Shown here in pieces: positions 49,587 to 54,568 of a stretch of 64,000 nucleotides of DNA. The notes under the pieces are model-generated. The model did not search any database and was not told the origin of the DNA. It saw nothing but the letters and a program-made list of their open reading frames with translations. The DNA comes from an uncultured SAR86 cluster bacterium (lineage in GTDB: Bacteria > Pseudomonadota > Gammaproteobacteria > Magnimaribacterales > D2472). Location: NCBI GenBank assembly GCA_902622845.1, contig CACNRI010000001.1, positions 62,001-126,000 of the forward strand, in the 5' to 3' direction. The first letter of the stretch is position 1, and every line of letters starts with the position of its first letter. Position numbers and translations under genes: made by a program.

Positions 49587-50641
49587 CAGAAGAGTTTCAG
49601 CTCAATGATGATACTTACACTGGTACAAAAGAAGTTTCTGAAAATCTGAAATTTGATTCTAATCTATTGCAAGAGTGGATTAACGATAATGTAAAAAACT
49701 CAGGTAAGATTGAAAAAATTGAGCAATTTAAGGGTGGTCAATCAAATCCAACATACAAGATTTTGACTAACAACAATGCTTATGTTTTGAGAAGAAAACC
49801 ACCTGGTAAGCTTTTACCAAAAGCACATGCAGTTGATAGAGAATATAAGGTTATAACTGCACTCTATGAAACTGATGTTCCTGTTCCAAGAACCTATGGT
49901 CTATGTGAGGACGATTCGGTTGTAGGAACCCCATTCTTTTTAATGGAATATGTTGATGGAACTGTTTATTGGGATCATATGCTTCCAAAATGCTCCCCTG
50001 AGGAAAGAGCGCTAATTTATAGAAATAAAAATAGAGTTATAGCCAGTCTTCATAGCGTTGATTTTAAAGAAGTTGGTCTTGAAGATTATGGAAAATCTGG
50101 TAACTATGTCGCAAGACAAGTTAATACTTGGACAAGACAGTATCTTGCTTCTGAAACCGAGAATATTGATGAGATGAATAAACTTATAGAGTGGCTTCCA
50201 AAAAACATTCCAGAAGATGACGAAACATCAATTGTTCATGGTGACTTTAGATTAGATAATATGATTTACTCTAATTTTGATGTTGTTGGTGTGCTGGATT
50301 GGGAGCTCTCAACACTTGGACACCCAATTGCTGATTTTTGTTATCATTGTTTGACATGGAGGACTCTTCCTAATTTTCATGATCATAGGAAATTAAAAGA
50401 TTTAGGTATACCAAATGAAATGGAGTACAGAGATATGTATTCAGAACGAACCGGCAAAGATTTATCTCGGGACTGGGAGTTTTATATGGTTTATAGCCTT
50501 TTTAAAGTTGCAGCCATTTGCCAAGGTATTCTTGGGAGAGTTAGAGATGGTACAGCTGCCAGCAAACATGCCGAGGAGAGAGGAATGAATGTTTTTCCTC
50601 TTTCTAAAGGTGCTTGGTCAATTGTTGAATCAAACTTTTAA
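49583..50641 (+). CDS. APH-fold phosphotransferase (ACAD10/11 N-domain type)
   Basis: A 352-residue aminoglycoside-phosphotransferase-fold kinase. The catalytic loop is H219-G-D221-F-R-L-D-N226, and the metal site D239 is in LDWELSTLGHP. FKGGQSNPTYKI and EYKVITALYETDVPVPRTYGLCED match the group fused to acyl-CoA dehydrogenases in ACAD10/11, which phosphorylates 4-hydroxyacyl-CoAs. No dehydrogenase is fused or adjacent here. Its stop overlaps the convergent DUF6356-like gene by 4 bp. Confidence 0.82.
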   Translation: MTEEFQLNDDTYTGTKEVSENLKFDSNLLQEWINDNVKNSGKIEKIEQFKGGQSNPTYKILTNNNAYVLRRKPPGKLLPKAHAVDREYKVITALYETDVPVPRTYGLCEDDSVVGTPFFLMEYVDGTVYWDHMLPKCSPEERALIYRNKNRVIASLHSVDFKEVGLEDYGKSGNYVARQVNTWTRQYLASETENIDEMNKLIEWLPKNIPEDDETSIVHGDFRLDNMIYSNFDVVGVLDWELSTLGHPIADFCYHCLTWRTLPNFHDHRKLKDLGIPNEMEYRDMYSERTGKDLSRDWEFYMVYSLFKVAAICQGILGRVRDGTAASKHAEERGMNVFPLSKGAWSIVESNF

Positions 50642-50856
50642 TTGTCTTTATTCAATCTTTTTGTATTCATTTTGTGAAGATCCTTTACGGTATCACTTGC
50701 TACAGATGTAAGTATAAATGGAAATATTGCATGAATAATTGCCGCTAAACCTCCAATTAAAAGTCTTAATCCGTAGTAAAAAGCATCTTTAAAATGAACA
50801 AAATATGACTTATTAATTGAACGAAGGTGCTCAGTTAGAAAACTCCCCTTTTTCAT
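50638..50856 (-). CDS. DUF6356-like small membrane protein
   Basis: About 72 residues from the ATG at 50856. An upstream TTG would add six residues and seems unlikely. The pattern LTEHLRSINKSYFVHFKDAFYYG followed by a hydrophobic GGLAAIIHAIFPFI and a TVKDLHKMN tail resembles a small uncharacterised family (DUF6356) of alphaproteobacteria and gammaproteobacteria. It has one or two membrane-embedded stretches. Function unknown. It marks the left edge of the accessory-looking stretch. Confidence 0.6.
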   Translation of the reverse strand: MKKGSFLTEHLRSINKSYFVHFKDAFYYGLRLLIGGLAAIIHAIFPFILTSVASDTVKDLHKMNTKRLNKDN

Positions 50857-50876
50857 ATGATACAAGTATAACAAGA

Positions 50877-52313
50877 CTATGGACTGACAGCTAAGCGCGA
50901 ATCGTAATATTCTTCAAGCTCTTTAAGACGCAGTTCTTGATCAGGAAATCGCTCACGAAGCTCCTGCAGTTCTGAAAGGACTTTTGAAAAATTTACCCAT
51001 CTTTGATCTCTACCAGACTGAAAATCAAATAATCTTTGATTACAAAAACCTCGATAGGCATCTAGCAGTGAGTTAGGAACAGAATCTGGACAGTTTTCTA
51101 TGATCACCCGTCTGGCAAGTCTAGCAATTCTGTTTGTTGGTTCAATCAAATCGGTGCTTCTTAAAAGATCCCAGCGATTCTGCCAATCTACTGCATTGAA
51201 GTCTTGTATGAATTGAGATTCATTTGGTTGTACGAAGTCATCAAAAATTGTAAGCTCCAAGGAGCTATCTGTTCTTGATCGATTAGTAATTTCAAATAAT
51301 TTAAAAGCCTCTGATACAACTTCTTTTAGGGCTTTATTATCTCTAGCAACATTGGCACGCTCACGAAGTTCAGTTAAGGAAACTTCAGAATGACTATAAC
51401 AGACTCTATAGTGATCTTCCCCAAAAATAACTTTTTGTTTATTTAATGGTAATAAAACAAAAATGTCGTCAATCTTCCCTCTAGCAAGCTGCCTACTTAT
51501 CTCCCAGCTATGGATATTCTTTATTTGGGAAGGATTAATTTGGGCAATATCAAGACAAAGAACATCTGAGCCATTGTTGCAAAACAATATTGGTGCTAAA
51601 GCTCGACCATGAAGATTTTCTCCAAACCCAATAGAGGCGCAGACAAAACTATTTTGATTGATAAGATTTTTAACAGATTTCTTTTGTGAATATTGCATTG
51701 CGTGCTGAACTATTTCTGGAGAATCAGCCTTCATCATTTCAAAGACCGCAAGTGTTGCATCAACATCTTCTGAAGCATTATGAGCTTTATAGAGGATTCC
51801 ATTTTCGTGACAAACACGCTCCAATGAAAAGCTTGGTGAGTTTAGTAAATCTAAAGGAAACTGTATTTTAGAATCAAGATTAAATCCATAAATCGCTTTT
51901 AAAATTTCTAGTCCACATAAAACAGAGTGCTCAGTCTTCCATGAATACCAATTTGAGTTTGTAAGTTGCTGAAAAGCTCCTGAATAAGAGAAACCAAAAT
52001 CAAATCTGGCGTTGTATGCAAGAATAAAGTCACGTGGGTACATGGCATTAAATTTGTTATCAAGGTCCATTAGAGTATTCAGGGGGATGCCGCTCTCAAG
52101 CGAACAACTTGATAGTCCATTGACAAACAAAGCAATTGGAGATGGAAGTCGATGACTCTCGCATTTAGCCGATAAATAAATCTGATCAACCACTTCACCA
52201 CCAACATATCTTTTTGCACAAGATGTTAAGGGTTGGTCAAAAAATTGGTTCAAGCCACTTGTTTCATAATCTCTACATATAATTGGTGAGTCTAGTATTT
52301 CTTTTTTATTCAT
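50877..52313 (-). CDS. sbcB: Exodeoxyribonuclease I homologue
   Basis: ExoI degrades single-stranded DNA 3' to 5'. The DEDDh exonuclease residues are all present: D15 and E17 in RDYETSG, D105 in AYNARFDFGF, and H178 and D183 in AHNASEDVDATLAVF. FGENLHGRALAPILF matches the ExoI SH3-like part, and the C-terminal helical domain ends ELQELRERFPDQELRLKELEEYYDSRL. It is 478 aa (E. coli 475) but divergent. Arginine is mostly CGN here, unlike most neighbours that use AGA, a hint of transfer. It overlaps the upstream nuclease gene by 8 bp. Confidence 0.86.
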   Translation of the reverse strand: MNKKEILDSPIICRDYETSGLNQFFDQPLTSCAKRYVGGEVVDQIYLSAKCESHRLPSPIALFVNGLSSCSLESGIPLNTLMDLDNKFNAMYPRDFILAYNARFDFGFSYSGAFQQLTNSNWYSWKTEHSVLCGLEILKAIYGFNLDSKIQFPLDLLNSPSFSLERVCHENGILYKAHNASEDVDATLAVFEMMKADSPEIVQHAMQYSQKKSVKNLINQNSFVCASIGFGENLHGRALAPILFCNNGSDVLCLDIAQINPSQIKNIHSWEISRQLARGKIDDIFVLLPLNKQKVIFGEDHYRVCYSHSEVSLTELRERANVARDNKALKEVVSEAFKLFEITNRSRTDSSLELTIFDDFVQPNESQFIQDFNAVDWQNRWDLLRSTDLIEPTNRIARLARRVIIENCPDSVPNSLLDAYRGFCNQRLFDFQSGRDQRWVNFSKVLSELQELRERFPDQELRLKELEEYYDSRLAVSP

Positions 52314-52950
52314 CTAGTTTAATAACTCCTTTTTTCTTAAGGTATTTAAAAATTTTACTTATTGCTTTATCAGCCCAGTTCTCTTCTTCAGACTTAAATC
52401 TGAATACCTTGATGTCATTCATTTTCATGCAATCTAATCGGTTTTCTTCATCAAAGTGTAATTTGCCTATATGTGATGGGCCATCAACTTCGATTCCAAT
52501 AGGTGTTCCATTTATTACTATGAGGAAATCAAGCTCTACACGCTTATCACCGCATATAGCTACAGGAAGAACCCAAAATGGGAACTGATATTCTTTTCCA
52601 TATTTTTTAGCTAATTGATGATTAGTTTTTTGGAATGCTTTATGCAGCTTCACTTCATGCTCGCTTCGGTGAGGAAAGAAGTTATGCCAATAGTCATAGT
52701 AGTGAGCAGGATTCTTGCTATGACCAATTCCATTGCAACCTCCTGGACTGTCAGGGTGTAAAAGATGAAGCAGGTCCCCTGATTCTTTTAGAAGTCTTTT
52801 CATTTCTTTTTCATGTCGGAGCATCTCACGATACATAGGTGAGTTCATTGCATAGCTTGGTGCCTGATTACTATCTATCTCATACTCTTCAATATTGCTT
52901 TCCTTGTCAGCAATTTTTGAGTGATTGGTGATGATCTTTATATCAGACAT
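52306..52950 (-). CDS. DUF559/Vsr-like PD-(D/E)XK nuclease
   Basis: A 214-residue protein whose C-terminal half looks like a DUF559/very-short-patch-repair-type endonuclease. The elements are SEHEVKLHKAF at about 96-106, D141 in VELDFLIV, E154-V-D156 in IGIEVDGPSH, then RLDCMKMNDIKVFRFK. The EVDG form replaces the canonical ExK, as in DUF559. The N-terminal 90 residues are not recognised and include CNGIGH and histidines. Coupling to an ExoI homologue suggests they act together on DNA. Confidence 0.6.
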   Translation of the reverse strand: MSDIKIITNHSKIADKESNIEEYEIDSNQAPSYAMNSPMYREMLRHEKEMKRLLKESGDLLHLLHPDSPGGCNGIGHSKNPAHYYDYWHNFFPHRSEHEVKLHKAFQKTNHQLAKKYGKEYQFPFWVLPVAICGDKRVELDFLIVINGTPIGIEVDGPSHIGKLHFDEENRLDCMKMNDIKVFRFKSEEENWADKAISKIFKYLKKKGVIKLDE

Positions 52951-52952
52951 TT

Positions 52953-53492
52953 TTAATGCTCTAGAATTATTGGTTTTCTTAATATCACATCAATGTAAGT
53001 CTCTATGGAGTACTTCCAGGGAAAAGAATCCCATGAGTCAGGACATGAGTTATCAAATGTAATACCAAAGATGGCTAATGCCTCCGATGGACATATTTGT
53101 TTTGTCTCACATATGAGTTGGATTTGTGCACAAATTAAAAATGGCCAATCATATAACTTGTAGGGTTTTATTAATGGAAGTCCATAAGAAGCAGAAGAAA
53201 ATAAATCAAGAATTAAATCCGCTGTTGTTGATTCAGTGGAAATAAGACTATTTGATTTTTTAACCTCAACATCATTAAACAGGTGATCGCCTTTTATTAT
53301 CGTTTCTACTTCGCTCGAACTTAACAATATCCTTGATGCTGAAAATAAATCATTTAGATTTTTTTTCTCTCTTTCAAAAACCTCAATAATGTTTTTACCA
53401 ATGTAAATTGGGATAAATTGATCTATTAGTGATAAGTCATATTTCCCATCAGTTGTTATTAAGTTCTTTACTGTATCTTTATCATTAAACAT
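52953..53492 (-). CDS. Unknown 179-residue protein of the nuclease operon
   Basis: I do not recognise a family. The protein is mostly predicted helical, has no signal peptide or membrane segment, and ends with a Trp-rich stretch (SWDSFPWKYSIETYIDVI). It is the first gene of the operon that continues into the DUF559-like nuclease (2-bp gap) and sbcB. A candidate promoter and an inverted repeat lie upstream. Confidence 0.7.
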   Translation of the reverse strand: MFNDKDTVKNLITTDGKYDLSLIDQFIPIYIGKNIIEVFEREKKNLNDLFSASRILLSSSEVETIIKGDHLFNDVEVKKSNSLISTESTTADLILDLFSSASYGLPLIKPYKLYDWPFLICAQIQLICETKQICPSEALAIFGITFDNSCPDSWDSFPWKYSIETYIDVILRKPIILEH

Positions 53493-53506
53493 ATATACGT
53501 ACCTCG

Positions 53507-53523
53507 AAATCGTCCCTCGATTT
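53507..53523. promoter_or_regulatory. Operator-like inverted repeat in the island control region
   Basis: AAATCG and CGATTT form perfect 6-bp arms around the spacer TCCCT, 15-31 bp upstream of the 179-residue protein's start. It would fall just after the predicted transcription start of the minus-strand promoter, a typical repressor position. A CCTCGA element also recurs with a 13-bp period (53502 and 53515). Confidence 0.4.
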
Positions 53524-53538
53524 ATTGAAGGAATGCCT

Positions 53539-53566
53539 ATAATACAGAAAAAGAATACATTTACAA
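53539..53566 (-). promoter_or_regulatory. Candidate sigma-70 promoter of the nuclease operon
   Basis: On the minus strand, TTGTAA (plus positions 53561-53566) and TATTAT (53539-53544) are separated by 16 bp. The -10 matches consensus in five of six positions and the -35 in four of six. The start codon is about 45 bp downstream. Confidence 0.4.
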
Positions 53567-53623
53567 GAGTTTTTATGTTAGATTGTACGGACGTTTAATT
53601 ATTTAAATGAGGGACATATATAT

Positions 53624-54568
53624 ATGAAGCAAATTACACGAGTAGAGTTTGAGGGTCTTAACTATGATTTCAAAGATACCACCCCACTTACAAAAGACGA
53701 TGAAACTTATCTGTATGCCCTACAAATAAATAACAATGAATCTACAAACACAAGCAAGACATCAATGAGAATTAAAAAATCTGTGCTTTGGGAATTAGAG
53801 CTGATATCTCGTATTTCTACAATAAGAGGGATTCATGATAACAAAACATTTGGAGACATCATCAACAATCTTCTGCAATTGGTATACCACTCTGATGATC
53901 TGCAGAGACCATATGTTGCTTTTAAGGACCTTCTTATGACGAAGAACTTCTTACAAAAGCTTTTTCATTTGGAAAATGGCAATCGAAAGATTTTTACTCT
54001 AACAGAGCTTACCTTCTCAACCGATCTAATCATTAGAACATTAAAACTAGCAATTTTTGAGAAGCACCTTCTTAGCCTCTTTGAAAAGAGGCTCCTCAAA
54101 GCTATTCTGACAAATGAAAACTTTGTTACAAAGCCTTTTGACACAGCAAAAATGGAATTTATGTACGATCCAGATGATTTTACTGACTGGCTTATAGCAT
54201 TTTTAAAAAATGAAGCGGAGTTGAAATGGTATGAGATTTATGATTTTTTTGGAATTGGTTCTTCTGAAAACTTTATTCAAGGTCGTGTTAATTTAATTGA
54301 GCTTCACGATCATGATGGTTCGCCTCTTGAAGCTAAGGGTTGGGAGTATATGAAATATGAAAGAAAAAATCTGGTACCTCCTGATCAAGAAGAATATGAT
54401 CAATTAAATGAGAAAGAACAAAAAGAATATTTAATTGAAAAAACTAAATATGATCATTACAGCGAGTTAGATTGGTTAGTTAAAGAAGGGAATGGGCGTT
54501 TTGATTATAGATTCAAAAAAGCTATTCAACTAAAAAGAAAGCAAGGAGATTACAGTACCGCTATCTAA
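53624..54568 (+). CDS. Unknown 314-residue protein with possible RHH segment
   Basis: Not assigned to a family. Residues about 44-87 (SKTSMRIKKSVLWELELIS... to ...GDIINNLLQLVY) look like a ribbon-helix-helix DNA-binding element: a short strand with alternating residues, then two helices. The remainder is helical and charged with no catalytic motif that I can see. It diverges from the nuclease operon across a 131-bp control region, so it may be its regulator. A possible Shine-Dalgarno sequence GAGGG is at 53609-53613, rather far from the ATG. Confidence 0.65.
   Translation: MKQITRVEFEGLNYDFKDTTPLTKDDETYLYALQINNNESTNTSKTSMRIKKSVLWELELISRISTIRGIHDNKTFGDIINNLLQLVYHSDDLQRPYVAFKDLLMTKNFLQKLFHLENGNRKIFTLTELTFSTDLIIRTLKLAIFEKHLLSLFEKRLLKAILTNENFVTKPFDTAKMEFMYDPDDFTDWLIAFLKNEAELKWYEIYDFFGIGSSENFIQGRVNLIELHDHDGSPLEAKGWEYMKYERKNLVPPDQEEYDQLNEKEQKEYLIEKTKYDHYSELDWLVKEGNGRFDYRFKKAIQLKRKQGDYSTAI

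Follow-up and report, generated by a model that had tools for sequence, protein, structure and literature searches.

A candidate nuclease defence cassette of four genes in the APH–folK interval of an uncultured SAR86 bacterium

Results and discussion

Four genes lie between two blocks of housekeeping genes in the window, i.e. the whole stretch of 64,000 nucleotides that was analysed. With a probability of roughly 0.55 we read them as a self-contained, horizontally exchanged nuclease defence cassette against invading DNA, known from two instances and with a putative chemistry. More tentatively, they may constitute an undescribed antiviral system: one clean, exchangeable cassette that combines two new protein families with a DUF559-like endonuclease and a divergent ExoI. 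Several points speak for defence: the unit is kept in two genera, it is present or absent at one and the same site, the exonuclease residues are intact, and a GmrSD gene occurs at this site. Furthermore, a distinct ExoI is encoded elsewhere in the host, and none of the four genes turned up in the searched genomes apart from the cassette. Against this count the number of instances (two), the two orphan families without a recognisable fold, and the fact that only one recognised defence gene is known from the site. The cassette matches no complete known system. The DNA-defence reading, which had already been put forward from the sequence alone, has been strengthened by a full copy in the genome G089 and by the GmrSD gene in the genome G053, and keeps the status of a candidate.

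If the cassette does defend its host, it adds a two-nuclease type of defence with two new protein families. It would also mean that small genomes have a fixed position among their housekeeping genes at which defence units are swapped cleanly, and the interval between APH and folK would be a place to seek more undescribed systems in this order.

Gene organization and a second copy

Three genes form a tightly packed operon on the minus strand in the order U179 – nuclease – ExoI-like. U179 (53492–52953, 179 aa) ends 2 bp before the start of the DUF559-like nuclease gene (52950–52306, 214 aa), which overlaps by 8 bp with the ExoI-like gene (52313–50877, 478 aa). In the opposite direction, on the plus strand, follows U314 (53624–54568, 314 aa), separated from U179 by a divergent control region of 131 bp (53493–53623). 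The three coupled minus-strand genes and the divergent 314-aa frame are located exactly where the sequence-only reading had placed them. The cassette is flanked by cca, an SDR gene and APH on one side and by folK, folB and tsaD on the other, and its outer genes end tail to tail with their neighbours. A small gene of about 72–78 aa (50638–50874, minus strand) separates APH from the cassette.

Among the 99 genomes of the family that were searched, the only further U314 was found in G089, a member of another genus. All four genes are present there (L009 10398–14089) between APH and folK, in the same order and orientation as in the window: ExoI (L009 10398–11849, minus strand), the nuclease (L009 11846–12436, minus strand), U184 as the partner of U179 (L009 12445–12999, minus strand) and U333 as the partner of U314 (L009 13088–14089, plus strand). 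Since order, orientation and invariant catalytic residues recur in G089, the four reading frames are real genes and not chance ORFs. The two copies are 39% identical for ExoI, 43% for the nuclease, 36% for U314 and 32% for U179, the last value coming from an uncertain alignment because a unit of about 60 aa is repeated in the G089 protein. These 32–43% compare with 55–87% for the adjoining core genes (APH 69, folK 74, folB 87, tsaD 62 and the next gene 55%). The two genomes make the cassette a rare element, found in 2 out of 203 genomes of the order.

One may ask whether these genes were brought by a mobile element or prophage, now decayed, as replication or recombination genes, and are located at this site by chance. 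Indeed, the ExoI-like protein has a match at 1.4e-28 to a phage family without assigned function, PHROG 19080. However, no gene is broken in either copy, neither an integrase nor a transposase is found inside the cassette, and in both genomes the outer stop codons are only a few bases away from the flanking sequence. Scans of viral contigs, phage and plasmid records gave nothing except a distant ExoI: there were no cassette relatives in the viral contigs and one distant ExoI in the phage records, the alignment-based viral scans being weak negatives with two short peptide patterns each. An origin from such an element appears quite improbable.

Presence and absence at the APH–folK interval

The region downstream of APH was taken from 74 relatives, and 76 APH–folK intervals were compared across the family. 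Less than 120 bp separate APH from folK in 35 intervals, a PepSY-TM gene is located there in 30, a gene of about 72 aa in 7 and other sequence of 480–720 bp in one. Cargo was found in the three others, namely the two cassettes in the window genome and G089 and one GmrSD gene in G053. The cassette is absent from 74 of the 76 intervals, including all eight of the same-genus genomes with a readable site, so that the absence from close relatives at this locus expected by the sequence-only reading for an accessory cassette was borne out. The cassette genes are not core genes.

The small gene next to APH is kept by seven of the eight same-genus genomes and is lacking in G003; other genera mostly have the PepSY-TM gene or nothing at its place. 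Compared by eye, the window and the empty same-genus site agree as far as about 50873 to the left of the cassette and again from about 54575 to its right, with approximately 20 bp of spacer replaced by the cassette. The window cassette sits between the small gene and folK, that of G089 between APH and the PepSY gene. The two adjoin different resident genes, and from opposite sides, which makes two separate insertions more likely than one ancient cassette that disappeared from most lineages, the resident genes being exchanged afterwards.

In G053, the third interval with cargo, the type IV restriction gene GmrSD is complete and lies between APH and PepSY (L059 10539–12488). Its 649-aa product shows both the GmrSD N domain (4e-31) and the C domain (1.4e-7) and has PADLOC matches to defence families. 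The gene occupies the very junction which the cassette uses in G089, but codes for a single protein unrelated to the cassette: the site is common to both, the sequence is not. With the cassette in 2 and GmrSD in 1 of 76 intervals, the distribution is sporadic at a site that also takes a defence gene, and the site looks like a defence hotspot, with one recognised defence gene behind it.

U179, U314 and the control region

Neither U179 nor U314 has a match in Pfam, PHROGs or NCBIfam. U179 contains one unit of about 60 aa (PS..L..F.I...DSWD.F), of which its G089 partner has two tandem copies. PADLOC PDC-M69A matches the U179 family weakly (E=0.0047) and in one copy only; the structure model is poor (pLDDT 38) and has no recognisable fold. 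For U314 a ribbon-helix-helix protein had been suggested. Residues 44–90, approximately, resemble this fold by eye only, and the suggestion could not be confirmed, as neither the whole protein nor the segment was matched by Pfam. The model has low confidence (pLDDT 44, below 40 in the respective segment) and no recognisable fold, and a fold search with it found nothing at E<=0.001.

The control region holds 10-bp direct repeats 13 bp apart (53498–53507 and 53511–53520) just upstream of U179. Furthermore, there is a 7-bp inverted pair, GTCCCTC/GAGGGAC (53512–53518 and 53609–53615), with one arm before U314. Similar 13-bp repeats are found at the same place in G089. Hardly any shuffles (1 in 2000) reach the resemblance between the upstream regions of the window cassette and G089, but 16 of 1474 control pairs, from a set that includes true orthologues, do so too. 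These repeats are at most suggestive of local control. The direct repeats in the window also overlap the likely ribosome-binding site of U179.

The divergent, regulated layout around the control region, with the operon on one side and the single gene on the other, and the sporadic distribution would also suit a selfish module of the addiction or toxin-antitoxin-like kind. In this case the nuclease together with U179 would harm the host, ExoI or U314 would restrain it, and the module would persist after transfer without primarily defending the cell. Yet four genes and 3.7 kb are large for such a module, and none of the proteins matched a family of toxins or antitoxins. As many such modules also act in defence, the selfish and the defence readings overlap. 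We regard the selfish one as unlikely.

For a defence cassette, the following mode of action can be envisaged. The central divergent region would serve the U179-nuclease-ExoI operon in one direction and U314 in the other. The DUF559-like enzyme might nick or cut DNA that is foreign or carries phage modifications, exposing 3' ends that the ExoI-family enzyme would then digest. U179 may be a partner or specificity factor of the adjoining nuclease, and U314 a DNA-binding regulator or sensor acting on the shared control region.

The DUF559-like nuclease

The 214-aa protein is a candidate DUF559-like nuclease of the PD-(D/E)xK type, mainly by the agreement of its motifs. The residues D141, E154, D156 and H160 (D/E/D/H motif) are invariant in the window and G089 copies. 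Both share the motif VELDF-x11-EVDGxSH, and the pattern D...ExDGxxH of the DUF559 active site is invariant in them, with a spacing from DF to E that is two residues longer than in the usual DUF559 pattern. As in DUF559/Vsr-like nucleases, this core is followed by E.R and I.VFR blocks. The cassette enzyme differs from these by an additional N-terminal block, GGCNG..H, which is likewise invariant in both copies, and by its Pfam score, as the DUF559 cut-off of 20.6 is reached neither by the whole protein (13.0 bits) nor by its C-terminal piece (14.4 bits). No Vsr model matched it. Thus, the label "DUF559/Vsr-like" from the sequence-only reading agrees with the motifs and must be held more weakly than it was stated. 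In the open-access literature (subscription papers were outside the scope) no paper pairing DUF559 with phage defence was found.

Search for members elsewhere

Beyond the window and G089, no further convincing member was found with the U314 profile in 99 genomes of the family and 369 of the class, with the nuclease profile in 203 genomes of the order and 398 of the phylum, or with the U179 unit in 202 genomes of the order. The possibility that the genes occur independently of each other elsewhere was thereby followed from family to phylum, and no lone member came up. The ExoI profile gave matches of about 35–82 bits over the 369 class genomes; these are presumed to be ordinary ExoI. Weak matches to the nuclease profile were taken as chance: in the order, a 616-aa protein and 337-aa proteins that lie about 4 kb from APH and, given this position, are probably PdxA; in the phylum, proteins of 611–624 aa that probably are GlmS, because the PDB search also gave GlmS. 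A DNA-pattern scan over all genome contigs yielded 84 stretches, and the 80 of them that were searched contained at best distant DUF559-like nucleases; such distant matches to the pattern, in other phyla, stand without any of the cassette partner genes.

The ExoI-like protein

NCBIfam ExoI matches the ExoI-like protein with 1.4e-25 over model residues 11–471; the score, 89.9 bits, lies below the equivalog cut-off of 260. It is therefore a divergent member of the ExoI family and not an ExoI equivalog: the "full-length homologue" noted earlier holds for the extent of the match and not for equivalence. The C-terminal domain PF08411 (Exonuc_X-T_C) is just detected in the window copy (27.8 bits, cut-off 27) and is not matched in the G089 copy. 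Solved ExoI structures were matched by profile, and the DEDDh residues D15, E17, D105, H178 and D183 are invariant in both copies. The protein shares domain order and catalytic residues with the housekeeping exodeoxyribonuclease I (SbcB), but the cassette proteins are only about 19–26% identical to it. In a tree of twelve rows with long branches, the two form one clade with 100/100 support, apart from the host ExoI and from plasmid ExoI-like proteins.

The host's own ExoI-like gene is located on another contig (C2 of G000; L004 1483–2871, 462 aa). It can be ruled out that the cassette gene is a duplicate of it, because of this location and because the host protein is very divergent. Its identity with either cassette ExoI stays below 22%, and it scores only 19.5 bits against Pfam RNase_T.

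Mismatch repair and recombination involve ExoI, and short-patch repair involves nucleases of the Vsr type. Together with the kept catalytic residues, this would fit an accessory cassette for DNA repair or recombination, in which the endonuclease would open DNA at damage or mismatches for resection by the extra ExoI, giving some strains better repair. But the host already has an ExoI of its own, the nuclease is below the DUF559 cut-off and without a Vsr match, and the rarity within the order fits exchange under variable selection better. We consider a repair function rather improbable.

For both cassette ExoI proteins, PADLOC gives RTasSbcB as the best match, near full length (4.9e-28 and 3.1e-15). 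This is an ExoI-like protein listed under the defence reverse transcriptases (DRT). However, plasmid relatives of RTasSbcB score 310–350 bits, compared with 54–96 for the cassette proteins, which form their own clade. Since no match to a reverse transcriptase (PF00078) was found in the genome, which is about 91% complete, while controls were detected, a DRT system with RTasSbcB was rejected. In DRT9, a different system, degradation of the poly-dA product by the host ExoI and its blocking by a phage protein have been reported (PMC12483538), a precedent for ExoI activity mattering in antiviral immunity.

Three alphaproteobacterial plasmids share a recurrent module of three genes, coding for an HTH protein, an ImmA/IrrE peptidase and an ExoI-like protein (L176 6071–8392, L177 6124–8407 and L178 6084–8389), with no reverse transcriptase annotated in these stretches. 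L176 and L177, the two that were scanned, are those with 310–350 bits against RTasSbcB. Two of the modules are located near ThiF-family genes and one near a nucleotidyltransferase–SLATT pair.
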